40,396 nucleotides of DNA, from assembly GCF_028693495.1 (NCBI RefSeq), contig NZ_JAQUVG010000017.1, positions 1 to 40,396 of the forward strand, given 5' to 3'. Position 1 is the first letter of the stretch. The number at the start of each line of letters is the position of its first letter. Position numbers and translations under genes: made by a program. The notes beneath the pieces were generated by a model, which worked only from the letters and a program-made list of their open reading frames with translations, ran no database searches and was not told the DNA's origin. This DNA comes from Zoogloea sp. (GTDB taxonomy: Bacteria; Pseudomonadota; Gammaproteobacteria; Burkholderiales; Rhodocyclaceae). Shown one piece after another: positions 9,908 through 40,299 of the stretch.

Positions 9908-12900
9908 ATGCAACTCTCACGGCGCCAGTTCTTCAAGGTGGCCGCCGGGGGCTTGACCGGATCGAGCCTGGCTGCGATGGGCTTCTCGCCCACCGCAGCC
10001 CTCGCCGAAGTCCGGACCTTCAAGCTCGCGCGCACCACGGAAACGCGCAACACCTGCCCGTACTGTTCGGTCGGGTGCGGCATCATCCTGTACAGCCTGG
10101 GCGACAGGGCCAAGAACGCCCACGCCGAGATCATCCATATCGAAGGGGATCCGGACCATCCGGTGAACCGTGGCAGCCTGTGCCCCAAGGGCGCTGGCCT
10201 GCTCGATTTCGTGCATAGCAAGAACCGCCTCAAGTATCCCGAGATCCGGGAACCCGGCAGCAAGGAATGGAAGCGCATCAGCTGGGACGAGGCCTACAGC
10301 CGGATCGCCAAGCTGATGAAGGAAGACCGGGACGCCAACTTCATTGCAAGGAACGCCGACGGCGTGACGGTGAACCGCTGGCTGACCACCGGCTTCCTCG
10401 CAGCCTCGGCCTCCAGCAACGAGGCCGGCTACATCACCCACAAGGTGGTACGCACTCTGGGAATGCTCGCATTCGACAACCAGGCACGTGTCTGACACGG
10501 CCCGACGGTGGCAAGTCTTGCCCCGACGTATGGCCGCGGCGCGATGACCAATCACTGGTCCGACATCAAGAATGCGGACGTGATCCTGATCATGGGCGGT
10601 AATGCCGCCGAAGCCCACCCCTGTGGGTTCAAATGGGTGACCGAAGCGAAGGCGAAGAACAAGGCCCGCCTCGTGGTCGTGGATCCGCGCTTCACGCGAT
10701 CCGCCGCGATGGCCGACCTCTACGCGCCCATCCGCACTGGCACCGACATCGCCTTCCTGGGCGGGGTGATTCATTATCTGATCACCAACAACAAGGTGCA
10801 CATGGACTACATCAAGTCCTACACCGACATGACCTTCCTCGTGAAGGAGGAGTTCGCCTTTGTGGACGGCTTCTTCTCGGGCTACGACGTGGAGAAACGC
10901 AAGTACGACAAATCCACCTGGGAATACCAGATGGGCGAGGACGGCTACGTCAGGACCGATCCCAGCCTGGAAAACCCGCGCTGCGTGTGGAACCTGATGA
11001 AGGCCCACTTCAGCCGCTACACACCTGAGGTCGTGGAGAACATCTGCGGGACACCAAAGAAAACGTTCCTGCAGGTAGCCGAGCTGCTGGCCTCGAGCCA
11101 CACGCCGGACCGGGTGATGACCATCCTGTATGCCCTCGGCTGGACCCAGCACTCCACGGGCTCCCAGATCATCCGCACCGCCGCGATGGTGCAGCTCCTG
11201 CTGGGCAACATCGGGCGGGCAGGTGGCGGGGTGAACGCCCTGCGCGGCCATTCCAACATCCAGGGCCTCACCGACCTGGGCCTCCTCTCCAACCTGCTCC
11301 CCGGCTACATGAGCCTGCCCGGCGAGAAGGAGACCGACTACGACACCTACATCGCCAAGCGGGCACCCAAGCCCATGCGGCCGGGCCAGATGTCCTACTG
11401 GCAGAACTACGGCAAGTTCCATGTCAGCCTGATGAAGGCCTGGTATGGCGCAGCTGCGACGAAGGAGAACAACTGGGCCTTCGACTACCTGCCCAAGCTG
11501 GACAAGACCTACGACGTCCTGCAGGTCTTCGAGCTGATGCACCAGGGCAAGATGAATGGCTATGTGGCCCAGGGCTTCAACCCCCTCAACTCTTTCCCCA
11601 ACAAGGCGAAGGTGAGCGCGGCCCTGTCCAAGCTGAAGTTCCTGGTCATCATGGACCCACTGGCCACCGAAACATCCGAGTTCTGGCAGAACTACGGCGA
11701 GTTCAACGATGTGGATCCGGCCCAGATCCAGACCACCGTGTTCCGCCTGCCCACCACCTGCTTTGCCGAGGAGGACGGAGCCATCGTCAACTCAGGCCGC
11801 TGGCTGCAATGGCACTGGAAGGGTGCCGAACCCCCCGGTGAAGCCAAGCCCGACACAGAAATCATGGCGGGCCTGTTCCTGAAACTGCGGGAGCTGTACA
11901 GGAAGGACGGCGGCGCCTTCCCCGACCCACTCCTGAACCTGGCCTGGAACTACAAGCTTCCCCACGAACCCTCGTCGGAGGAACTGGCCAAGGAGTACAA
12001 CGGGAAAGCCGTGGTGGATCTGCTGGATCCAAAGGATCCCACCAAGGTCATCAAGAAGGCCGGCGAACTGCTCGACGGCTTTGCCCAGCTCCGGGACGAT
12101 GGTTCGACCGCCTGTGGCTGCTGGATTTTCTCGGGCGCCTGGACCGAGAAGGGCAACATGATGGCCCGGCGCGACAACGCCGACCCCTGGCACAATGGCC
12201 AGACCCTGGGCTGGGCCTTCGCCTGGCCAGCCAACCGGCGCATCCTGTACAACCGGGCCTCGGCCGATCCAGCCGGCAAACCCTGGGACGCCCGGCGCAA
12301 GCAGGTGTGGTGGGACGCAGCCAGCAGCAAGTGGGTGGGTTCGGACATCCCCGACTTCAAGGCCGACTCGGCCCCCGAAGAGGGTATGGGTCCCTTCATC
12401 ATGACCCCCGAGGGTGTAGCACGCTTCTTTGCCCGCGGCATGATGAACGAAGGCCCCTTCCCAGAGCACTACGAGCCCTTCGAGACACCCATCGGTGTGA
12501 ACCCCATGCACCGCAACAACCCCAAGGCCACGTCCAACCCGGCCGCACGGGTGTTCAAGGGTGACATGGAAGCCTTCGGCACAGCCAAGGAGTTCCCCTA
12601 CGCCGCCACAACGTATCGGCTCACCGAGCACTTCCACTACTGGACCAAGCACGTGCAGTCCAATGCCGTGATCCAGCCGGAACAGTTCGTGGAGATCGGG
12701 GAGGCCCTGGCTGCAGAAAAGGGCATCCAGGCCGGCGACAGGGTCAAGGTAAGTTCCAACCGGGGCTATATCAAGGCCGTGGCCGTGGTGACCAAGCGCA
12801 TCAAACCCCTGCAGGTCGACGGAAAGACGGTGCACCACGTCGGGATCCCGCTCCACTGGGGCTTCAAGGGGGTGGCCAAGAACGGCTTCATCACCAACAC

Positions 12901-12979
12901 CCTGACGCCTTTTGTCGGAGACGGGAACACCCAGACGCCGGAGTTCAAGTCCTTCCTGGTCAACGTCGAGAAAGCCTGA
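9908..12979 (+). CDS. fdnG: Formate dehydrogenase major subunit, selenocysteine-containing
   Basis: A 1023-residue catalytic subunit (bis-MGD molybdenum or tungsten, one [4Fe-4S]) of the membrane-bound, periplasm-facing formate dehydrogenase. It oxidises formate to CO2. The start ATG 9908 has AGGAGG at 9892-9897 and opens a twin-arginine signal (SRRQFFK). The cluster Cys are 50, 53, 57 and 92 ([14 protein letters not shown]). A TGA at 10493-10495 interrupts the frame within [17 protein letters not shown], the conserved active-site context, and corresponds to Sec196, the same position as in E. coli FdnG. A SECIS hairpin follows at 10506. The frame continues without interruption to 12979 with typical Mo-binding domains ([14 protein letters not shown], GALAxG-type region absent). 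Gene callers that stop at UGA will split it into 9908-10495 and 10508-12979. It leads the fdnGHI operon under a sigma54 promoter. Confidence 0.96.
10506..10525 (+). promoter_or_regulatory. Bacterial SECIS hairpin for Sec196 of fdnG
   Basis: The hairpin starts 10 bases after the UGA codon. The lower stem CGG (10506-10508) pairs with CCG (10523-10525). A single bulged U (10509) is followed by GGCAA (10510-10514) pairing with TTGCC (10518-10522), with the small loop GUC. The bulged U and the G/U of the apical loop are the SelB-recognised features of the E. coli fdhF and fdnG elements, and the spacing matches. SelB is encoded at 16975-18906. Confidence 0.88.
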
Positions 12980-18962: not shown

Positions 18963-19059
18963 GGAAGGGATGCGTCCCCCGGTGGGGCGACTGGTCTTCA
19001 AAACCAGGAGGAGCCGTCAAGCGGCTCCTGGTGGGTTCGACTCCCATTCCCTTCCGCCA
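18963..19059 (+). tRNA. selC: tRNA-Sec (anticodon TCA)
   Basis: A 97-base selenocysteine tRNA. The 8-bp acceptor stem pairs 18963-18970 with 19048-19055, followed by the discriminator G and an encoded CCA (19057-19059). The anticodon stem 18991-18995/19003-19007 closes a 7-base loop with anticodon TCA at 18998-19000. A long variable arm (about 19008-19030, GGAGCCG/CGGCTCC) and the T loop GGTTCGACTCC follow. The 8-bp acceptor and long extra arm are diagnostic for tRNA-Sec. Its position directly after selB and the presence of a UGA-containing fdnG make the assignment firm. Confidence 0.96.
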
Positions 19060-26265: not shown

Positions 26266-27171
26266 CTAGCGTTTCTTGAAGCCAGTCGTCAGCCAGATGC
26301 CACTCAGAATCAGCCCAATCCCGAAAAAATGATAGATCCGGGGGATTTCATCCAGGAAAAACATGGCCAGGAGGGTACTGAAAGCGGGCATCAGGTGAAT
26401 GAAGAGCCCGGCAGTGGAGGGTCCCACTTCTCCCACCGCCCGATTGTAAAAAACGTATCCCAGGAAAGCAGGGAAAACACCCGTGTAGACCACACCGGCG
26501 ACTGCGCCAGGTGTTAACTGGACAGGTCGTCCCTCCATCAGCTCCCAGACGCACAGAGGCGCCAGGAGCATCAGGCCGATCGCCGTAAGCACCGCAAGCA
26601 GGGCCATTGGGTGTAAGCCAGCTGGCCGCCATCGTAGCCCGATTGTGTAAAGCGCCCAGGACAGGACGGCTGCCAGCATCCACAAATCCCCCGCGTTCAG
26701 GCTGAGTCCTGCCAGAACGGTCATATCTCCCCGGCTGATGATGGTCATCACTCCGGCAAACGACAAGGTAACGCCAATGGACTCCAGGGCGCTCGCCCGA
26801 TGTCCCATGAACCAGCTGATGGCAATGATGGCGATGGGGATGAAGGAGTTCAACAGGGCGGCATTGGTTGCCGTGGTATGAACCAGGGCAATGTAGGCCA
26901 GGGTGTTGTAGGCACCGACACCAAGTACGCCCAGCACCATCAGGATGGTCCACTTGCTCCTCGACAGGCCTTTCAGTGTGTGGAGATGGGGCCAGGCGAA
27001 AGGAAGGGTCAGCAGGAAGGCCAGAATCCACCGCCCGAGGGCCAGTGTCATGGGAGGTACGACTTCCCTGAGTCCTCGCCCCACAACCATGTTCCCTGAC
27101 CAGAACAGTACGGTGAGGGTTAACAGTAAGTAAGGATGAGTCAGGAAACGAGGATGGCAACGTTCGGACAT
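26266..27171 (-). CDS. DMT-superfamily (EamA) transporter
   Basis: A 301-residue inner-membrane protein with ten predicted helices in two EamA repeats (about residues 13-140 and 155-295). Motifs include LLTLTVLFWSGNMVVGR in helix 1, GAYNTLAYIALVHTTATNAALLNSFIP in the first repeat (in parts) and GLFIHLMPAFSTLLAMFFLDE in the second, typical of metabolite exporters of the RhaT/EamA group. The substrate is unknown. It heads a three-gene minus-strand operon. Its start codon is the left border of the AT-rich origin-like region. Confidence 0.87.
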   Translation of the reverse strand: MSERCHPRFLTHPYLLLTLTVLFWSGNMVVGRGLREVVPPMTLALGRWILAFLLTLPFAWPHLHTLKGLSRSKWTILMVLGVLGVGAYNTLAYIALVHTTATNAALLNSFIPIAIIAISWFMGHRASALESIGVTLSFAGVMTIISRGDMTVLAGLSLNAGDLWMLAAVLSWALYTIGLRWRPAGLHPMALLAVLTAIGLMLLAPLCVWELMEGRPVQLTPGAVAGVVYTGVFPAFLGYVFYNRAVGEVGPSTAGLFIHLMPAFSTLLAMFFLDEIPRIYHFFGIGLILSGIWLTTGFKKR

Positions 27172-27282
27172 GACAGAGCCTGAAGGCTGGATGGCTCTTG
27201 ATTATGGCCGAGCATGCTTGTCTTTGATCTTGGGAGCAACCCTTATGGCGGACCTGCCCGTGGCATCCATCTGTTTCAGCTT

Positions 27283-27325
27283 GTTTTGTATATGTTTTTA
27301 TTTATATATATAAGACTATGTTAAC
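27283..27325. other. AT-rich stretch left of DnaA box 1 (DUE-like)
   Basis: A run of almost pure A/T (for example TTTTTATTTATATATATAAG) ending with GTTAAC at 27320-27325. Its place directly beside a perfect DnaA box matches the duplex-unwinding element of oriC. The counterpart in the second copy ends with GTTAAC at 27671-27676. Confidence 0.55.
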
Positions 27326-27342
27326 TATGCACCTGACTTTTC

Positions 27343-27351
27343 TGTGGATAA
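27343..27351 (-). other. DnaA box, perfect, copy A
   Basis: TGTGGATAA on the plus strand, that is TTATCCACA on the minus strand, a full match to the 9-base consensus. It sits next to the AT-rich stretch as R1 does in oriC. Confidence 0.85.
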
Positions 27352-27369
27352 CTACTTAAATTTCTTTTA

Positions 27370-27382
27370 ATTCAATAGCTTA
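27370..27382 (+). other. IHF-type site, copy A (one mismatch)
   Basis: ATTCAATAGCTTA differs at one base from WATCAANNNNTTR. It lies 18 bases after DnaA box 27343-27351, the usual R1-to-IHF geometry, and is matched 354 bp downstream by a perfect site. Confidence 0.5.
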
Positions 27383-27467
27383 ATAACTGTAAAAAGCTCT
27401 GGAAAAGGATCGGGACAAGCTTGGGAGGAAATGGGGAGGATTTTTTGCCCAGGTGCTGAAACGACAG

Positions 27468-27476
27468 TTGTCCACA
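27468..27476 (+). other. DnaA-box-like 9-mer, copy A
   Basis: TTGTCCACA, one mismatch from TTATCCACA. The equivalent position in copy B (27822) reads TTGTGCACA. Confidence 0.6.
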
Positions 27477-27501
27477 TTTTGCTGGACAGTAAACGAGCGG
27501 C

Positions 27502-27510
27502 TTATGCACA
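27502..27510 (+). other. DnaA-box-like 9-mer, copy A
   Basis: TTATGCACA, one mismatch from consensus. The equivalent in copy B (27856) reads TTATCCCCA, also one mismatch. Confidence 0.6.
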
Positions 27511-27696
27511 GATTCAGTTTCAGCAGAATGTTGGCAGAAGTGTCTTTGCAACGGGATCGGGGTATTCCTGCCTGGTGTGTGAAGAGATCAGTTCAGACCT
27601 TTTCAGGGTTTCTGGGGCCCGTCATTGATTCAATGTGTTTGTGTACTTCTTTTATGTATACATAAATACTGTTAACAACAATGCTCGGGCTGTTTC

Positions 27697-27705
27697 TGTG
27701 GATAA
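27697..27705 (-). other. DnaA box, perfect, copy B
   Basis: TGTGGATAA, full consensus match in reverse orientation, within the shared context TTTCTGTGGATAA that is identical in both copies. Confidence 0.85.
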
Positions 27706-27723
27706 GTAGTTTTTTTTAAATAA

Positions 27724-27736
27724 AATCAATTGTTTA
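27724..27736 (+). other. IHF consensus site, copy B
   Basis: AATCAATTGTTTA matches WATCAANNNNTTR at every defined position and lies 18 bases after the DnaA box. Confidence 0.6.
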
Positions 27737-27821
27737 AATCGTTGATAAGGCTGTCGGAAAAGGGTGGGACTGGATGTGTGTGATTTGTTGAGGAAATTTT
27801 GCCTCGTCTAAAACAGGGGCT

Positions 27822-27830
27822 TTGTGCACA
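27822..27830 (+). other. DnaA-box-like 9-mer, copy B
   Basis: TTGTGCACA, two mismatches from consensus; it is nearly palindromic and lies 354 bp from its copy A partner. Confidence 0.45.
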
Positions 27831-27855
27831 ATTTGAGTGCTTTCTTTTCCCAGAT

Positions 27856-27864
27856 TTATCCCCA
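27856..27864 (+). other. DnaA-box-like 9-mer, copy B
   Basis: TTATCCCCA, one mismatch from consensus, 354 bp from TTATGCACA of copy A. It lies 36 bases before the earP start. Confidence 0.5.
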
Positions 27865-27900
27865 GACGTGTCATTCCTCCGGTCATCCTTGCCTCCCGTG

Positions 27901-29040
27901 ATGTCCTTGCAACCCCGTTGGGACATTTTTTGTCCGGTAGTGGATAATTTTGGCGACGTAGGTGTCTGCTGGCGCCTGGCGCGTCAGCTGGCCCGGGAAG
28001 AAGGGATTGCACCGCGCCTGTGGGTCGATGATCTGGCCAGTGCCCGTCGTCTGATTCCCTCGCTGCCTTCCAATGCCCTCTGTCATCTGGTGGAAGGGGT
28101 GGAAATCCGCAGCTGGCAGACCTGCTTTCCCCTTGTGGAGCCGGGTCCAGTGGTCATTGCCGCTTTTGCGGCGACGCTTCCGGAGGGTTTCCTGGAGGCC
28201 ATGGCGGGCTGTGTACCGCCGCCCCGCTGGATCAATCTGGAATACCTGAGCGCCGAGGATTGGGTTGCCGGTTGCCATCGTTTGCCCTCTCCCCACCCTC
28301 GGCTGCCTTTGGTGCAGCACTTTTTCTTTCCAGGTTTCGATCGTTTCACCGGTGGCTTGCTGAGGGAAGGGGACTACGCCTGGAGACGTTCGGCCTTCCA
28401 GGAGAGTGTTTTTCTAAAGGCTGGGGGCATTCCCTCACGTCAGCCTGGTGAACTCTTCATTTCATTGTTTTGTTATGAAAATCCTGCTCTTCAGGGGCTG
28501 CTTTCAGCCTGGGGCCAGGGGCCAGGGCGGGTCACCTGCCTGGTCCCCGAGGGGCGCGCCCTGCCAGATATTTGCGACTTTTTTGGTATCAGTGCTCTGA
28601 AGGCTGGGGACAGGCTCACGAAAGACCATCTTGTGGTTCATGTCCTGCCCTTTGTCGAACAGACCCGATACGACGAGTTGTTATGGGCCTGCGACCTGAA
28701 TTTCGTGCGTGGTGAGGATTCCTTTGTGCGTGCCCAGTGGGCTGAAAAGCCCTTTGTCTGGCACATTTATCGCCAGGAAGACGAGGCCCACCTGAAAAAG
28801 CTGGCTGCTTTCCTGTCCCGGTTCTGCGCAGGGCTTGACCCGGAAGTGCGTTCAGTACTGCAAACCTTCTGGGTAGCCTGGAATCAGGGGGACGGGCAGG
28901 CCGTGGTTGCATCCTGGCCTGCCTTCAGGAAAGCCTTGGCTGCTCTTGCCGCTCATGGAGAAGCCTGGTCGGCCCGTCTTCAGCTTATGGAAAGCCTCTC
29001 TGCTCAGCTGGTGCGTTTTTGCAAAGATGGGATAGAATGA
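27901..29040 (+). CDS. earP: EF-P arginine rhamnosyltransferase
   Basis: A 379-residue GT-B glycosyltransferase (DUF2331) that attaches rhamnose from dTDP-rhamnose to Arg32 of elongation factor P. The N-terminal catalytic motif [18 protein letters not shown] (Asp15 and Asp19) and the C-terminal nucleotide-sugar motif [23 protein letters not shown] are both intact. The start is ATG 27901; the open frame continues upstream into the origin-like region but lacks family similarity. It is followed 58 bases later by its substrate gene efp. It directly abuts the candidate origin, so its promoter must lie within copy B of the module. Confidence 0.94.
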
Positions 29041-30782: not shown

Positions 30783-32657
30783 TCACTTGCCCCGCAGTTC
30801 TGTCACCCGGGTCTGGAGTATCTCCAGGCTGACGGTTGAAGGATTCAGGGCAGGTCCGCCGATCAGTTCGATCTGGTTAAGCAGACCACACCTCGGCAAC
30901 CGCCTGGAGGCTGAGCCGTCCCCTCGGGAAAGCGTGCTGCGCCACAGGCCGCGCAGTGCCAGGGGCACGACAGGCACCGGGTTGGCCTTCAGTATCCGGG
31001 TGATACCCGGCTGAAAAGGGCCGATTTTCCCATCGGAAGTGATCCTCCCTTCCGGAAAAATCCCTACCAGTTCGCCTGCAGCCAGAGCTGAGGATGCTTC
31101 GGTGAAGGCGGCTTTCATCATTGCCGGGTCTTCCTTGGCCGGGGCGATGGGTATGACACGGCTGTGGCGGAAGAAAAAAGCAAGTATTGGCCAGCGGAAG
31201 ATCCTGTGGCTCATCACGAAGCGGATTGGCCGGGGGCAGGCTGCGGTGATCACCAAGGCATCCACGAAGCTCACGTGATTGCACACCAGGATGGCGGGTC
31301 CCTCCGCCGGGATATGTTCGAGGCCCCGGGTGCGCAGACGGTACACGCTGTGGATAAGTAGCCAGACAATGAAGCGCAGCAGGAATTCAGGGGCCTGTCT
31401 GTAAATGTACAGGGCCACGGCGGCGTTCATCAGGGCTGCTATCCCGAACAGTATCGGCAGTGAAAGACCGGCGCTCAGCAGGCTTCCTGCTGCCAGGGCT
31501 CCAGCGACCATGAACAGTGCGTTCAGGATGTTGTTGGCGGCAATGATCCGGGCCCGCTGTTCAGGGGCAGAGCGGCTCTGCATCATGGCGTAAAGTGGGA
31601 CGATGAAGAATCCTCCGAAAACTCCCAGCATCATCAGGGCAACCAGAATCCGGAGTGTTCCAGGCCCGGCGAGTACATCCCCGATGGCCATGGAAGTGAC
31701 GCTGGGTATGACCGTGGGGGATGCCCACGCCAGATCCAGTCCGAACAAGGTCAGCCCGATGGAGCCAAAGGGCACCAGTCCGATTTCCAGATGCCCTCCG
31801 GAGAGTTTTTCACAGAGGAGGGAGCCCACTCCAATACCCACTGTGAAAGTAGCCAGGAGCAGGGTGACGGTGCCTTCCCCCCCGCCCAGCAGGGTCTTGG
31901 CGTAGGCCGGAAACTGGGCCAGGAACAGGGCACCGTAGAGCCAGAACCAGGAGATGCCCAGGATGGCCAGGAATACGCTGCGGTTCTGCCGCGCAAAGGC
32001 GATGTTCCGCCAGGTCTCGGTCAGAGGGTTTGGATTGATTTTCAGGCCAGGCGCAGGGGCTGGCGCTGGCGGAATATGCCGGCTGCTCAGGTAGCCGGCC
32101 ACGGCTACGGTCATGCCGCCACCGGCGATCCATAGCGCCCCCTGCTCTGCTGCCGCGAGCAGACCACCAGTCAGGGTTCCGAGCAGGATCGCCACGAAGG
32201 TGCCCGCTTCTACCAGTGCGTTGCCTCCCACCAGTTCGTCCGGCTTCAGGTGCTGGGGCAGCAGGGCGTACTTAACTGGCCCGAACAGCGTCGAGTGGCA
32301 GCCCAGCAGGAACAGTGCGCCGAACAGGATGATCAGGCTGTGGGCGAGGAAGCCTGTCAGGGCGACACCCATGATCCCGATTTCCAGAAGCTTGACCAGC
32401 CGGGTCAGTGCCGCCTTGTCGTACTTGTCCGCCAGTTGCCCGGCGCTGGCCGAGAACAGGAAGAAGGGAAGGATGAAGATCCCGCCAGCCAGATTGGCCA
32501 GGAGTGCGGGATCCAGGGGTGTCCAGCGGGCCGCCTGGAAGGTGAGCAGAACGACCAGCGCGTTCTTGAACAGGTTGTCGTTGAAGGCTCCCAGAAACTG
32601 GGTAAGGAAGAAGGGGCGGAAGCGGTGGGTGGCCAGGAGCCGGAATTGATTGGTCAT
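30783..32657 (-). CDS. MFS lysophospholipid transporter fused to PlsC acyltransferase
   Basis: A 624-residue two-domain membrane protein. Residues about 1-400 form a 12-helix MFS transporter of the LplT type (FLTQFLGAFNDNLFKNALVVL near the start). Residues about 420-624 form a PlsC glycerolipid acyltransferase with NHVSFVD (HX4D) and FPEGRITSDG. In E. coli LplT flips lysophospholipids inward and has no acyltransferase attached, so this is a fusion. The start is ATG 32657, 5 bases after the upstream gene's stop. With the adjacent Aas-like protein it should import and re-acylate lysophospholipids. It is the last gene of the arsR operon. Confidence 0.88.
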   Translation of the reverse strand: MTNQFRLLATHRFRPFFLTQFLGAFNDNLFKNALVVLLTFQAARWTPLDPALLANLAGGIFILPFFLFSASAGQLADKYDKAALTRLVKLLEIGIMGVALTGFLAHSLIILFGALFLLGCHSTLFGPVKYALLPQHLKPDELVGGNALVEAGTFVAILLGTLTGGLLAAAEQGALWIAGGGMTVAVAGYLSSRHIPPAPAPAPGLKINPNPLTETWRNIAFARQNRSVFLAILGISWFWLYGALFLAQFPAYAKTLLGGGEGTVTLLLATFTVGIGVGSLLCEKLSGGHLEIGLVPFGSIGLTLFGLDLAWASPTVIPSVTSMAIGDVLAGPGTLRILVALMMLGVFGGFFIVPLYAMMQSRSAPEQRARIIAANNILNALFMVAGALAAGSLLSAGLSLPILFGIAALMNAAVALYIYRQAPEFLLRFIVWLLIHSVYRLRTRGLEHIPAEGPAILVCNHVSFVDALVITAACPRPIRFVMSHRIFRWPILAFFFRHSRVIPIAPAKEDPAMMKAAFTEASSALAAGELVGIFPEGRITSDGKIGPFQPGITRILKANPVPVVPLALRGLWRSTLSRGDGSASRRLPRCGLLNQIELIGGPALNPSTVSLEILQTRVTELRGK

Positions 32658-32662
32658 GGCTT

Positions 32663-34804
32663 TCAGGCTCCTTCGGCCCACGTCTTCAGGGTGACATAAT
32701 CGGTCTTGCCCGTCCCCAGCAAGGGGAGTCCATCCACCGGGATGATTCTGCGTGGTACTGCGATCTCCGGCCAGCCACCGGTTCGCGCGGCGGCCTGGAG
32801 GGTTTCCCGGGTCAGATCAGGGTCGGTACTGAAGAGCAGGATGCTCTCGCCCCGGGAGGGATCCGTCCGGGTGGTGGCGCCGTGGCTGGCGTGGGGTGAG
32901 GCGCTGGTGGCCAGTTTCTCCACGGACTCCAGGGAAACCATCTCGCCTGCCACTTTGGCAAAACGCTTGACCCGGCCAACGATCTTCACGAATCCCTCGT
33001 CATCCACTTCGACCACATCCCCTGTTTCGTACCAGCCCTCTCCGACGGTAGATGCAGGGGGATGCAACAGGCCTGGATCCTCCACCCGCAGATAACCCGA
33101 CATCAGATTGGGTCCCTTCACGTGAAGCATGCCGCCGCTGGCAATGCCAGGGACCGGAAGCAGTGTTGTCTGGATGCCCGGCAGGAATTGGCCTACGGTA
33201 CCGCTGCGGTAGGCCATCGGCGTGTTGACGGCCAGTACGGGGGCCGTTTCGGTGGCTCCGTAGCCTTCAAGGATGCGCAGACCGAATTTCTCGAACCATA
33301 GATCCCTGACTGATGGGGACAGTTTTTCGGCACCGGCGATCACGTAGCGCAGGCGGTAGAAATCGTAGGGGTGGGCAAATTTCGCGTAGTTGCCCAGGAA
33401 GGTGCTGGTCCCCAGCAGAACCGTGCAGTTGCGATCATAGGCAAGCTCGGGGATGACCCGGTAATGGAGGGGCGAGGGGTAGAGGAAGACCCGGGCACCC
33501 GTCAATACCGGTAGCAGGCCGCCGGCCGTCAGTCCGAAGGAATGGAACAAGGGGAGTGCATTGAGGATCTTGTCGTCGATGGAAAAATCCACCACTGCGC
33601 GAATCTGGGCCACATTGGCGAGAAGGGCCCGATGGGAGAGCACCACACCTTTGGGCTTGCCTTCCGACCCCGAGGTGAACAGCACCACGGCGGGATCTTC
33701 CGGGGAGCCCAGCCCCAGGGCCAGGCCGGGAAAGGGAAGTGCCCACAGCATCAGCCACAGCCTGTCGCCGATGGACAACGCTGCCCGCAGGTCCTCGAGC
33801 CACAAGATGCGTACGTTTTCGAGTGCAGCCAGCTTGTCTCCCAGTTTCGCTTGTTCCACGAAGGCCCGGGAAGTGATGATGGTCCGGATCCGGGCCGCCG
33901 TCAGGGCTGCCTGAATGCCGTCTACTCCGGCGGTGTAGTTGAGCATCGCGGCGGTGCGGCGGTGGGCCGACAAGCCGAAAACCAGCGCCAGGGTCGGTGC
34001 GAGGTTGGGCAGCAGCAGGCCGACGGATTCCCCGGGCTGGCTTTGTCGGGCGCTCAGTCTGCCCAAGGCCAGGCTCATCTTGATCAGGTCACGATAGCTG
34101 TACTCCGTCTGCCGGAGATCCTCCAGCAGCCGGCGGCTCCTTCCCTGGATTCGGGCCGCATCAAGCAGTGTCTCGAACAGGGTCAGGTTCGGACGTGTGG
34201 CGAAGATCATTTCCTGCATCAGCCGGCGCATTTCTTCCCCCGCCTTGCGGCGGCGCTGACGGGCGGACCCAGCAACGGGCATGGGAATGTGGGTGCTTGG
34301 CAGGATGGACAGGCTGATCCGGGGGAACAGACGACGGGGCACGTGGGCCGACAGACGGGAGAAATAGGTCCTTGCTGCGCCGTCGATGCGCACGGGCAGG
34401 ATCGTCGCTCCGGTCTTGGCGGCTACAAAAGCGGGGCCATCGTAGGTTTTCATCAGGCTGCCGGTGGTGGTGATGCGTCCTTCCGGGAAGATCACAACGG
34501 GTCGGCCAGCCTCGATCAGCCGGATCACCTTTTTCATGGCCATCGGGCTGGTGGGATCCACGGCCAGATAATCCACCAGCGACAGCACGGCCTTGAAGAG
34601 TGGATTGCCCAAGACCCCCGTATGCACCACAAAAACCGGATCCAGGGGCAGAAAGAGGCCCAGGAGCAGTCCGTCCAGAAAGGACTCATGATTGGCGACC
34701 ACCAGGAGGCGGGGGCTCCGGCCCGGAATCTGGCCCTGCATCCGGACCCGGAACAGCAGGGAAGCGGCGATCCGCAGGATCGTCTTCAGGAGAGTCCGCA
34801 GCAT
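32663..34804 (-). CDS. aas: Aas-like acyltransferase / acyl-ACP synthetase
   Basis: A 713-residue bifunctional protein with the same domain order and nearly the same length as E. coli Aas (719). The PlsC domain (about 1-215) has VANHESFLDG (HX4D) and FPEGRITTTG. The AMP-binding domain (about 230-713) has VVLFTSGSEGKPKGVVLSH, ILEGYGATETAP and YETGDVVEVDDEGFVKIVGR. The acyl-activating half should load fatty acid and the PlsC half should transfer it to 2-acyl-lysophospholipid. The ATG at 34804 is 8 bases after the ArsR-type gene, and the next gene begins 5 bases after its stop, so the three are one operon. Confidence 0.87.
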   Translation of the reverse strand: MLRTLLKTILRIAASLLFRVRMQGQIPGRSPRLLVVANHESFLDGLLLGLFLPLDPVFVVHTGVLGNPLFKAVLSLVDYLAVDPTSPMAMKKVIRLIEAGRPVVIFPEGRITTTGSLMKTYDGPAFVAAKTGATILPVRIDGAARTYFSRLSAHVPRRLFPRISLSILPSTHIPMPVAGSARQRRRKAGEEMRRLMQEMIFATRPNLTLFETLLDAARIQGRSRRLLEDLRQTEYSYRDLIKMSLALGRLSARQSQPGESVGLLLPNLAPTLALVFGLSAHRRTAAMLNYTAGVDGIQAALTAARIRTIITSRAFVEQAKLGDKLAALENVRILWLEDLRAALSIGDRLWLMLWALPFPGLALGLGSPEDPAVVLFTSGSEGKPKGVVLSHRALLANVAQIRAVVDFSIDDKILNALPLFHSFGLTAGGLLPVLTGARVFLYPSPLHYRVIPELAYDRNCTVLLGTSTFLGNYAKFAHPYDFYRLRYVIAGAEKLSPSVRDLWFEKFGLRILEGYGATETAPVLAVNTPMAYRSGTVGQFLPGIQTTLLPVPGIASGGMLHVKGPNLMSGYLRVEDPGLLHPPASTVGEGWYETGDVVEVDDEGFVKIVGRVKRFAKVAGEMVSLESVEKLATSASPHASHGATTRTDPSRGESILLFSTDPDLTRETLQAAARTGGWPEIAVPRRIIPVDGLPLLGTGKTDYVTLKTWAEGA

Positions 34805-35664: not shown

Positions 35665-36498
35665 ATGAGCACTGGTACCGAAGCACACGCCCCGACCGCG
35701 GGTGAATACATCGTCCACCACCTGACCCACCTCAACTCCACCGGTCACGCGCAAACCGCGATCATCGACTGGAGTGTCTGGAACCTGGATACCCTCTTCT
35801 TTTCCATTGGCCTGGGTGTCGTCACCCTGCTGATCCTGATCAAGGCCGCCAATGGTGCGACCTCCGGTGTTCCTGGTCGTTTTCAGGCTGCCATCGAGAT
35901 TCTGGTCGAGATGGTGGCTGATCAGGCCAAAGGCATCGTCCATAGCGCTGAATCCCGCAAGTTTGTTGCTCCTGTTGCCCTGACGGTGTTCTTCTGGATC
36001 TTCCTGATGAACTCCATGGACTTCCTGCCGGTTGATCTGCTGCCGCGTATTGGTGAGATGTTCGGTCTGCATTACATGCGCGTCGTTCCCACCGCTGATC
36101 TCAATGGCACCCTCGGCATGTCCATCGGCGTGCTGCTGATCTGCCTCTACTACAACATCAAGATCAAGGGCTTCGGCGGCTGGATTCACGAACTTTTCAC
36201 CGCCCCCTTCGGCTCTCACCCGTTGCTCTATCCGATCAACTTCCTGATGCAGATGATCGAGTTTCTGGCCAAGACCGTTTCCCACGGCATGCGACTGTTC
36301 GGCAATATGTACGCCGGTGAACTGGTCTTCATGCTGATCGCGCTGATGGGCGGTACCGCCACTGTGTTCGGTTTCCTCGGTCACATCGTTGCCGGGTCCA
36401 TCTGGGCGGTCTTCCATATCCTGATTGTCGCCCTGCAGGCCTTCATCTTCATGATGCTGACCCTGGTATATATCGGGCAGGCTCACGAAAGCCACTAA
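35665..36498 (+). CDS. atpB: ATP synthase Fo subunit a
   Basis: A 277-residue membrane subunit forming the proton half-channels. The essential Arg lies in [19 protein letters not shown], and [21 protein letters not shown] is the last helix (in part). The N-terminal region HHLTHLNS is typical of proteobacteria. It contacts the c ring and subunit b. It begins 2 bases after atpI. Confidence 0.96.
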
Positions 36499-36539
36499 GT
36501 AGTTTCAAGGTTCAAGCAGTCGTTTCGGTTTCAATTTAA

Positions 36540-36809
<270 letters not shown>

Positions 36810-36844
36810 GTTTCGCGGCTCAACCTGACTAAAGGAAGATAACC

Positions 36845-37318
36845 GTGAATCTGAACGCAACCCTGGTAGCCCAGCTCGTTGTGTTCTTCATTCTGGCGTG
36901 GGTCACGATGAAATTCGTGTGGCCCCCCATTGTGAAGGCACTTGACGAGCGCGCGAAGAAAGTCGCTGACGGGCTTGCGGCTGCGGACAAGGCGAAGAAT
37001 GACCTCGCCCTCGCCGAGAAGAAAGTCGTTGAAGAGCTGCGCAAGGCGCGCGAGTCCGCTACGGACGTGCGTGCTTCTGCTGAAAAGCAGGCTGCAGTGT
37101 TCCTCGATGAAGCTCGTGCCGAAGCCGCCCGAATCATTGCCCAGGCCCGCGAAGCCGCCGAAGCCGAAGCTGGCGTCGCTGCCCAGCGTGCCAAGGAAGC
37201 CCTGCGTGATCAGGTCGCCCAACTCGCTGTCGCTGGCGCCGAGAAGATTCTCCGTAAGGAAATCAATGCTCAGGCCCATGCGGACCTGCTGGCCAACCTG
37301 AAACAGGAACTTCAATAA
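36845..37318 (+). CDS. atpF: ATP synthase Fo subunit b
   Basis: A 157-residue stator subunit: N-terminal membrane helix [19 protein letters not shown], then a long charged coiled coil (about residues 30-150). The start is a GTG at 36845, backed by AAAGGAAG nine bases upstream and by the family N-terminus [10 protein letters not shown]. It links the a subunit to F1. It is followed 3 bases later by atpH. Confidence 0.95.
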
Positions 37319-37321
37319 GCC

Positions 37322-37858
37322 ATGGCCGAGAACGTCACCATCGCACGCCCCTATGCTGAAGCGGCATTTCAGCTCGCTTCCGCGGGCAATGCGCTGGGGC
37401 CTTGGTCGGAAGCACTAGGTCGGCTGGCGGCTATCGCCGCCGATCCGCAAATGGGGGATTGCATCAGCGATCCCAAGCTCCAGCCTGCACAACTGGCCGG
37501 GCTTTTCCTCGACGTCGCTGGAACCACACTGTCTGCTGAACAGCAGAACTATGTGCGTGTTCTGGTCGAAAACGAGCGTCTGCAAGTGCTTCCCGAGATC
37601 CGTGACCTGTTCGTTGCCCTAAAGAACGAACATGAAGGTGTCAAGGAGGCGAACATCGCCTCCGCTTTTCCCATGGACGATGCCACGCTGAAAACGCTCG
37701 TTGCTGACCTGGAAGCTCGCTTCAAGGCCAGACTCAACGTGACTGTCAGCGTCGACCCCGAGTTGATCGGTGGGGTCAAGATCGTCGTTGGGGATGAAGT
37801 CATCGACGCCTCGGTCCGCGGCAAGCTCGCGAACATGGCCGCCGCGCTAAAGAACTAG
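37322..37858 (+). CDS. atpH: ATP synthase F1 subunit delta
   Basis: A 178-residue OSCP/delta subunit. [14 protein letters not shown]-type start (here [14 protein letters not shown]) and the C-terminal [25 protein letters not shown] are diagnostic. It joins the b stalk to the top of the alpha/beta hexamer. It starts 3 bases after atpF and ends 11 bases before atpA. Confidence 0.95.
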
Positions 37859-37869
37859 GAGCATAAGCT

Positions 37870-39408
37870 ATGCAACTCAACCCCTCTGAAATCAGTGACC
37901 TGATCAAGAGTCGGATTCAGAACCTGCAGCTGTCCGCGAATGCCCGCACCGAGGGTACCGTGGTTTCAGTGACCGACGGTATCTGCCGTGTTCACGGCCT
38001 TTCCGATGCCATGCAGGGCGAAATGCTGGAATTCCCCGGCAACGTCTTTGGCCTCGCCATGAACCTCGAGCGCGACTCCGTCGGCGCCGTGGTCCTGGGT
38101 GAATACGAAGGCATCTCCGAAGGCGATACCGTCAAGTGCACGGGCCGCATTCTGGAAGTTCCGGTTGGTCCGGAACTGCTCGGTCGTGTGGTCAATTCCC
38201 TCGGCCAGCCGATCGACGGCAAGGGTCCGATCAACGCCAAACTGTCCGAGCCGATCGAAAAGGTTGCTCCCGGCGTGATCTGGCGCAAGTCGGTGTCCCA
38301 GCCGGTGCAAACCGGCCTGAAGTCGGTGGACGCAATGGTTCCCGTTGGTCGTGGCCAGCGTGAGCTGATCATTGGTGACCGTCAGACGGGCAAGACTGCC
38401 GTCGCTGTTGACGCGATCATCAACCAGAAGGGCGAAGGCGTCCTGTGCATCTACGTGGCAGTCGGCCAGAAGGCTTCGACGGTTGCCAACGTGGTGCGCA
38501 AGCTTGAAGAGCACGGCGCACTGGAATACACCATTGTCGTTGCTGCCACCGCTTCCGAGTCCGCTGCGATGCAGTACATCGCTCCGTACTCCGGCTGCAC
38601 TATGGGCGAGTACTTCCGCGACCGCGGTCAAGACGCCCTGATCGTTTATGACGATCTGACCAAGCAAGCCTGGGCTTACCGTCAGGTTTCCCTGCTGCTG
38701 CGTCGTCCCCCGGGCCGTGAAGCCTACCCCGGCGACGTGTTCTATCTGCACTCCCGTCTGCTCGAGCGCGCTGCCCGCGTGTCCGAGGAGTATGTCGAGA
38801 AATACACCAACGGTGAAGTCAAGGGCAAGACCGGTTCGCTGACCGCGCTCCCCGTGATCGAAACCCAGGCCGGCGACGTTTCCGCGTTCGTTCCGACCAA
38901 CGTGATCTCGATTACCGACGGCCAGATCTTCCTGGAAACCGACCTCTTCAACGCAGGTATCCGTCCCGCCATCAACGCGGGTATTTCGGTGTCCCGCGTG
39001 GGTGGCGCTGCCCAGACCAAGGTCATCAAGAACCTCGGCGGCGGCGTGCGTCTGGCTCTTGCCCAGTATCGTGAGCTGGCTGCGTTCGCGCAGTTCGCTT
39101 CCGATCTGGACGAAGCAACCCGCAAGCAGCTCGAGCGCGGTCGTCTCGTTACCGAACTGATGAAGCAGCCGCAATACGCTCCGCTCAAGGTTTCGGAAAT
39201 GGCGATCACGCTGTTCGCAGTCAATAAGGGTGCTTTCGACGATGTCGAGGTCAAGCGTGCCCTGGCTTGCGAAACTGCGCTGCACCAGTTCGTGAAGACC
39301 AAGGCTGCCGATCTGGTTGCCAAGATCGAGTCGACCAAGGTTCTGGATGGCGAAGGCGAGAAGCAGCTCTCGTCCGTCATCGAAGAATTCAAGAAGAGCT
39401 GGGCTTAA
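37870..39408 (+). CDS. atpA: ATP synthase F1 subunit alpha
   Basis: A 512-residue nucleotide-binding subunit. The P-loop [10 protein letters not shown] is near residue 170, with the conserved [30 protein letters not shown] stretch (shown in part as [13 protein letters not shown]) and the arginine-finger region [10 protein letters not shown]. Length and domain order are standard. It alternates with beta in the F1 hexamer. Confidence 0.97.
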
Positions 39409-39429
39409 CGCAGGCATACGGAGAGCGAA

Positions 39430-40299
39430 ATGGCTAGCGGTAAAGAGATCCGTAACAAGATCAAGAGTGTCCAGAACACTAAAAAGATCACCAAGGCCAT
39501 GGAGATGGTTGCTGCGTCCAAAATGCGGAAGGCTCAAGACCGCATGCGGGCAGCCCGTCCCTACGCCGAGAAGATCCGCCGTCTCGCCGCGAATCTGTCT
39601 GCAGCCAACATCACCGACTACAAGCATCCGTTCCTCGTCTCGAAGAACGATGTCAAGCGTGTTGGGCTGATCGTCGTAACGACCGATAAAGGTCTGTGCG
39701 GCGGCCTCAACACCAACACCTTGCGCACTGGGTTGAACGCGCTCAAGGATTGGGAAAGCAAGGGTGTCACCGATATTCGTGTGACCTGTATTGGCAACAA
39801 GGGGCTGGGTTTCATGCAGCGCCTGGGTGCCAAGATCGTCTCGCATGTCACCCAGCTCGGGGATACCCCCCATCTGGAAAAGCTGATCGGGCCTGTCAAG
39901 GTCATGATCGATGCCTTCCAGAATGGTGAGCTGGACGAAGTGCACCTTGTCTACTCCCGCTTCATCAATACGATGAAGCAGGAGTCCCAGCTTGAGCAGC
40001 TTCTCCCGCTGACCGGCGAGCGTCTCGGAACCCCGGAAGGGAACTGGGATTACCTCTACGAGCCGGATGCGCAGGTGGTGATCGACGAACTCCTGGTGCG
40101 CTATGTAGAAGCGCTGGTGTACCAGGCGGTCGCCGAAAACATGGCATCCGAACAGAGTGCCCGGATGGTGGCGATGAAGGCAGCCTCCGACAATGCAGGA
40201 AGCGTGATTGGTGAACTCCAGCTGGTCTACAACAAGACCCGCCAGGCCGCGATCACCAAGGAACTGTCCGAAATTGTCGGCGGCGCAGCCGCGGTGTAA
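39430..40299 (+). CDS. atpG: ATP synthase F1 subunit gamma
   Basis: A 289-residue central rotor shaft. The N-terminal helix ([20 protein letters not shown]) and the C-terminal helix ([19 protein letters not shown]) form the coiled-coil axle, and [11 protein letters not shown] is a conserved core motif. It starts 21 bases after atpA and ends 27 bases before atpD. Confidence 0.96.

Follow-up and report, generated by a model that had tools for sequence, protein, structure and literature searches.

The standard picture of a bacterial chromosome gives it one origin core with one unwinding element. In E. coli the core of oriC runs from an AT-rich element through a leftward DnaA box R1 (TGTGGATAA) to an IHF site, which as read from the sequence lies close behind R1, and on to rightward outward boxes. 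Bipartite origins are described in Bacillus subtilis, Helicobacter pylori and other Epsilonproteobacteria (PMC4285127, PMC5043019, PMC6669920); they are divided into two subregions, one with the DUE, and between them lies a spacer gene, usually dnaA (PMC4285127). Opening is reported in oriC2 only (PMC5043019). Putative double origins, including that of Ralstonia pickettii 12D, were reported by Gao in 2015, and Pseudomonas aeruginosa has two autonomously replicating elements (PMC4403523). The exact position of the chromosome 1 origin of Burkholderia cenocepacia is uncertain according to its authors (PMC4948915).

Here we describe a doubled core at positions 27273-27872 of a 40-kb stretch of DNA (the window, 40,396 nucleotides, analysed as a whole), which is contig G000:C88 of a 3.5-Mb Zoogloea genome in 179 contigs. 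The doubled core coincides with the turning point of the GC skew and consists of two modules, A and B, which are same-direction copies of a whole oriC-type core, related but different. Each module has the order of parts of E. coli oriC (NC_000913.3): an AT-rich element, a leftward R1, an IHF-like site close behind it and outward DnaA-like boxes to the right. However, E. coli has one core only, and its outward boxes stand at +106 and +180, positions that neither A nor B shares, their own being R1+125 and R1+159. Direct alignment to E. coli oriC scored 41 for A and 30 for B, within the range of the shuffles of the A-B comparison given below, so that the likeness is one of order and position only.

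As in the bipartite origins, two DnaA-box clusters are found here that would form one origin. In the cited accounts of those origins, however, the DUE lies in one subregion and a gene occupies the spacer, whereas here the AT-rich elements of both modules are equally unstable in 22 of 22 loci and the tandem full cores are separated by a gene-free 136-374 bp. With two AT-rich elements and a gene-free gap, the doubled core is, judged by its sequence, different from the published bipartite origins as far as those accounts describe them. It shares with the double origins of Gao the presence of more than one origin-like element per chromosome, but in those cases dnaA neighbourhoods are duplicated or the sites are 150-882 kb distant from each other, and the account describes no tandem core repeat (PMC4403523). 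The B. cenocepacia origin, compared by description only, is also betaproteobacterial and has DnaA boxes, an IHF site, an AT-rich block and a second DnaA-box cluster, but no repeated core is described in that account (PMC4948915). In full-text searches of a literature collection with few subscription papers, neither tandem complete oriC cores nor a Zoogloea origin could be recognised from the titles and abstracts of the papers listed.

Anatomy and setting of the doubled core

The features of the two modules are collected in Table 1. IHF-like sites were scored against the consensus WATCAANNNNTTR, and the stability of 50-mers is a calculated value.

Table 1. Predicted features of the doubled core and its flanking genes, with positions in the window.
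Feature	Position	Strand	Remarks
DMT-type transporter gene	26266-27171	minus	left flank of the gap with the doubled core
Module A	27273..27518	+	model match 27280-27514, 145.3 bits (sequence itself part of the model)
AT-rich unwinding-type element of A	27280..27329		least stable 50-mer of the 40-kb window
DnaA box R1 of A	27343..27351	-	TTATCCACA, 0 mismatches; TGTGGATAA as read at 27343
IHF-like site of A	27370..27382	+	ATTCAATAGCTTA, 1 mismatch to WATCAANNNNTTR
Outward DnaA box2 of A	27468..27476	+	TTGTCCACA, R1+125
Outward DnaA box3 of A	27502..27510	+	TTATGCACA, R1+159
Module B	27627..27872	+	model match 27634-27870, 140.3 bits (sequence itself part of the model)
AT-rich unwinding-type element of B	27627..27676		fourth least stable 50-mer of the window
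DnaA box R1 of B	27697..27705	-	TTATCCACA, 0 mismatches; TGTGGATAA as read at 27697
IHF-like site of B	27724..27736	+	AATCAATTGTTTA, 0 mismatches to WATCAANNNNTTR
Outward DnaA box2 of B	27822..27830	+	TTGTGCACA, R1+125
Outward DnaA box3 of B	27856..27864	+	TTATCCCCA, R1+159
earP coding region as searched	27919..29040	+	right flank; TIGR03837, 474.7 bits against a cut-off of 347; start codon, not fixed, slightly upstream

The IHF stretches of A (27347-27396) and B (27700-27749) rank second and third among the least stable 50-mers of the window. The DnaA-box cluster at 27343-27864 comprises five sites with at most one mismatch to TTATCCACA, two of them perfect, together with TTGTGCACA; by the E. 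coli standard the right-hand boxes of B are weak, TTGTGCACA having two mismatches and TTATCCCCA one. The initial annotation had placed the R1 boxes, the IHF-like sites and both pairs of outward boxes exactly 354 bp apart (27343/27697, 27370/27724, 27468/27822 and 27502/27856), GTTAAC 351 bp apart (27320/27671) and GGAAAAGG 355 bp apart (27401/27756), and all of these coordinates are right. The two unwinding elements that it proposed correspond to two AT-rich elements of the unwinding type, putative and identified by calculated stability. Its view that an origin-like module is duplicated agrees with the local alignment of 27270-27560 to 27620-27915, which scored 104, the best of 500 shuffles (blocks of 40 bases) reaching 48, and the likeness of A and B is therefore more than chance. 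A gap-free direct-repeat finder returned no repeat family in 26800-28500.

The spacer between A and B is 136 bp long in the window and contains no gene, and some 50 bp separate the end of module B from the earP coding region. EarP is 62-66% identical, over the best segment, to its nearest named relatives, which come from ten Zoogloea loci. The transporter protein on the other side had no match in the loci searched and was unusable as a synteny anchor.

Calculated in one-kb bins, the GC skew stays below zero in each of the 27 bins as far as 27 kb and is above zero in 10 of the 13 that follow. The cumulative skew of the window has its minimum at 26-27 kb, a resolution too coarse to separate two starts that lie within a few hundred bp of each other. 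In a relative (G006), a 1.4-Mb contig sampled in 20-kb stretches shows negative skew in 11 of 14 samples to the left of the site and positive skew in 5 of 6 to the right. The turning point is thus seen locally and on a 1.4-Mb contig, a scale below that of the whole chromosome. The dnaA gene of the window genome is on another contig; the stretch beside it (L241) contains two boxes within one mismatch and gave no match to the module model at E up to 1. Features by which an oriC is recognised, namely a DnaA-box cluster, an AT-rich element (two, by calculated stability) and a skew turning point, are present in the region of the doubled core.

Retention and differentiation in the genus

Relatives were searched with a profile built from 40 aligned modules (A, B and 38 others), 36 of them from the genus; matches within the genus are expected by this construction, second modules elsewhere can be missed, and the model itself partly selects for the module ruler in matches from other families. 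Of 23 genomes of the genus, 22 yielded two full-length modules, the exception being G001 (72% complete), in which the search found no module. Four of the 22 had an extra short third match (E 0.18 to 0.59), which was excluded from the count. Both modules are also present in 11 of 11 named loci (L032-L042, ten Zoogloea and one Rhodocyclales bacterium), which represent mostly the same genomes as the 23.

Distances were compared in 22 loci, comprising the window, 20 others and L033; L017 (from G008), in which the model finds both modules but the R1 boxes are weak, was left out, and the alignment used for the distances also took in two loci that do not belong to the genus, L023 and L024. The R1-R1 distance varies from 354 to 592 bp, the window being the shortest, and the spacer, gene-free in these loci, reaches 374 bp. 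Within the modules, box2 lies 125 bp from R1 in all 22 B modules and in all but one of the 22 A modules; box3 lies 159 bp from R1 in 17 A and 16 B modules, and in the remainder of the 44 it is one base off. Since the inner offsets are constant while the R1-R1 distance varies, the sequences indicate that selection is acting on the geometry of the module and not on the distance between modules. The initial annotation had supposed that selection holds the 354-bp spacing, and this is not supported by the range observed. Helical phasing of the A-B distance was rejected as well, the mean vector being 0.34 at 10.5 bp for 19 distinct spacings (maximum of the period scan 0.46, near 21 bp). Alignment across relatives had been suggested as a check on whether both copies and their spacing are conserved; the copies are, in the 22 of 23 genomes, and the spacing is not.

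Mean pairwise identity is 0.69 for A and 0.71 for B, as compared with 0.61 for the spacer (from the 98 of 231 pairs that are similar in length), 0.59 upstream and 0.52 for shuffled modules; A-to-B identity averages 0.64 over the 22 loci. At ten positions at least 85% of the A modules are fixed for one base and at least 85% of the B modules for another. Box2 is TTGTGCACA in all 22 B modules and TTGTCCACA in 17 of 22 A modules, and box3 is TTATCCCCA or TTGTCCCCA, an unusual pattern (TTRTCCCCA), in every B module and in none of the A modules. R1 is perfect in 21 of 22 A versus 16 of 22 B, the other six B modules having TTTTCCACA (TGTGGAAAA). In G008, R1 is weakened to TGTGGACAA in A, and none is found within one mismatch in B. 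Given these variants, in some loci one core, or both, may be weak. Each of the 44 AT-rich elements of the 22 loci is less stable than any sequence of its own locus beyond the masked core zones, with means of -54.1 kcal/mol for A and -54.4 kcal/mol for B (E. coli, -53.4). Of the 22 modules of each kind, 19 A and 20 B have an IHF-like site with at most two mismatches, versus 1.4% of random places.

In a tree of 74 modules (247 columns), which included 11 loci of the genus, the A and B modules of the genus are separate, each needing one change. Support for B was 96/78 alone and 96/89 with both modules of G066; for A it was 85/61 with two long-branched G084 modules and 98/88 for 10 of the 11 A modules. 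Because A and B group apart, the doubling seems to be older than the radiation of the sampled genus. With the two about equally conserved, separate in the tree and distinguished by ten fixed differences, neither looks like a decaying copy.

Modules beyond the genus

The profile matches 144 of 150 genomes of the family and 65 of its 68 genera (E up to 0.01). The stretches around the best matches (L161-L218) represent 58 of the 68 genera, the window included, by one genome per genus; these are the genera for which a position was listed, and two further genomes were added. In 8 of the 58 genera two same-strand modules are separated by 0.3-1.2 kb, and in 6 there are two modules of opposite direction within 8 kb (g45, g51, g55, g72, g91 and g86, the last in one genome across contig ends), while 44 have a single module in the chosen genome. 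Other genomes of such genera can be doubled, as is G123 of g43. When only same-strand or clearly separate full-size matches were counted, leaving out reverse-strand and short weak ones, two matches were found, among the matches listed, in 4 of 4 genomes of g8, 3 of 3 of g12, 3 of 3 of g63 and 2 of 2 of g58; for g68 and g73 the figure was 1 of 3 each, so that doubling is not always kept. The stretches L161-L218 contain dnaA in 36 of 58 cases, earP in 14 and neither in 8, the gene being mostly directly beside the module. This presence of homologous modules in stretches with dnaA or earP supports the identity of the modules as origin parts.

A module upstream of earP with an inverted one 2.5-4 kb away was found in 9 of 10 named Thauera loci, the tenth having only the first, and Azoarcus indigens has both the earP-upstream module and the inverted second one. 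The same arrangement was seen in one Rhodocyclaceae locus. The loci concerned are L051, L057, L061, L063, L069, L073, L074, L076, L090, L097 and L110.

In the order, 206 of 300 sampled genomes match the profile, and at least 23 of the 300 have same-strand pairs or triples within 1.2 kb, which belong to at least six family codes (f1, f5, f8, f27, f49 and f51). Among the matches listed, 9 of 9 genomes of f27 are doubled and 8 of 9 of f8 have two or three modules. The R1-R1 distance in f27 is exactly 246 bp in five of the six genomes measured (L155, L252, L254, L256, L257 and L258) and 256 bp in the sixth, a near-constant spacing unlike that of Zoogloea. Three f8 loci (L259, L260 and L261, from G411, G436 and G223) each have a row of three same-strand modules at distances of 367-778 bp. 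The profile matches 110 of the 232 genomes sampled from the class; outside the order the sensitivity of the model is lower, and same-strand neighbours no more than 1 kb apart are listed for 2 of at most 229 genomes, G661 and G654. The description of a doubled origin core as unusual for a proteobacterium therefore needs qualifying. The two outlying loci, L271 (G654) with three and L270 (G661) with two same-strand module-like matches, have degenerate R1 boxes and dnaA in the stretch.

In the module tree the pairs of g8, g73, g86, g45, G042 and G312 are sisters and the six g12 modules form one group. The ten f8 modules also form one group, in which A and B lines are common to different genera. 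The copies of g51, g72 and g91 fall into two clades, one beside earP and one not; the g60 pair lies apart, and the pairs of g68, g63 and g58 show no clear placement. The pattern, as read from these sequences, is one of repeated doubling, concerted evolution or both, which a 247-column tree cannot separate.

How the two cores could act

From the anatomy, doubling, retention, differentiation and skew position described above we infer the following protein binding, opening and division of labour. We favour, with moderate confidence, an oriC of two non-equivalent tandem cores, of which one, likelier A, would be opened while the other gathers DnaA. Each module should be able to assemble an orisome, since the opening parts of the left half of E. 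coli oriC and right-hand boxes are present in both, and DnaA-ATP and IHF would assemble on the two cores alike. They would nevertheless not be equivalent: A has the more constant R1 and a box2 and box3 nearer to the consensus, and B is distinguished by its fixed unusual outer boxes. One core, likelier A, would be opened and loaded with helicase, and the other would gather or deliver DnaA and perhaps provide a second start point. As the cores are only a few hundred bp apart, a fork from either would copy the other at once, the pair would act as one origin per cycle, and once-per-cycle control need not suffer.

It is also conceivable, and we put it forward tentatively, that such loci are compound origins of two or, in some relatives, three complete specialised cores sharing one intergenic gap, gained repeatedly in the order, in which each core opens its own element and helicase loading is split between them, for example with the helicase of one fork loaded on each core. 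That the two cores are instead equivalent and redundant, each firing alone, with the doubling only raising the chance or robustness of initiation, we consider unlikely. All parts are indeed present in both, the mean stabilities of the AT-rich elements are equal (-54.1 and -54.4 kcal/mol), and the sister copies of G042, g8, g73 and g86 are close to each other; but ten fixed differences and constant, distinct outer boxes in B are not expected of interchangeable copies, and fixed differences of this kind speak against plain redundancy and for a division of labour. An arrangement of one working core and a regulatory copy that binds DnaA, likelier B, and either titrates it or couples earP expression to it appears improbable to us. 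It would fit the more variable R1 of B, its unusual box3 and its end so close to earP in the window. On the other hand, B is slightly more conserved than A (0.71 versus 0.69), and its AT-rich element is as unstable as that of A in 22 of 22 loci, where a titration site needs none.

We think it very improbable that one copy is a functionless, decaying relic of a past duplication. The R1 variants of B, the weak R1 boxes of G008 and the absence of doubling from some genomes of g68 and g73 (among the matches listed) are what decay might leave behind, but both copies are retained in 22 of 23 genomes, are equally conserved, above the level of spacer and upstream sequence, and have copy-specific constant positions; on the last two grounds decay was regarded as unlikely. 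We give hardly any credence to the idea that the region is not a chromosomal origin. The genome is a draft of 179 contigs with dnaA on another one, which makes the skew evidence local, but the local turning point, the extreme instability, the DnaA-box cluster and the homologous modules beside dnaA in other genera all argue against it.

A whole genus retains two non-identical cores in a span of about 0.6 to 0.85 kb, and related families have two or three. Such naturally occurring variants could be used to study which oriC parts are limiting for initiation, whether once-per-cycle control tolerates two unwinding elements, and how origins shift their chromosomal position, being beside dnaA in some genera and beside earP in others. 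The module profile also flags likely origins in draft genomes of these bacteria.

Other genes and elements lie further from the doubled core in the window. Rfam SECIS_3 matches 10490-10548, at the start of an ORF at 10508-12979, and a selenocysteine tRNA gene is at 18963-19059, so that selenoprotein machinery is encoded some 8 kb upstream of the origin. Two adjacent minus-strand genes at 30783-34804 resemble acyl-ACP--phospholipid acyltransferases; one scores above the PRK08043 cut-off, and the other matches PRK06814 in the transporter and acyltransferase part, with a score below the cut-off. F0F1 ATP synthase genes, with subunits a, alpha and gamma identified, occupy 35665-40299, about 8 kb from the origin.
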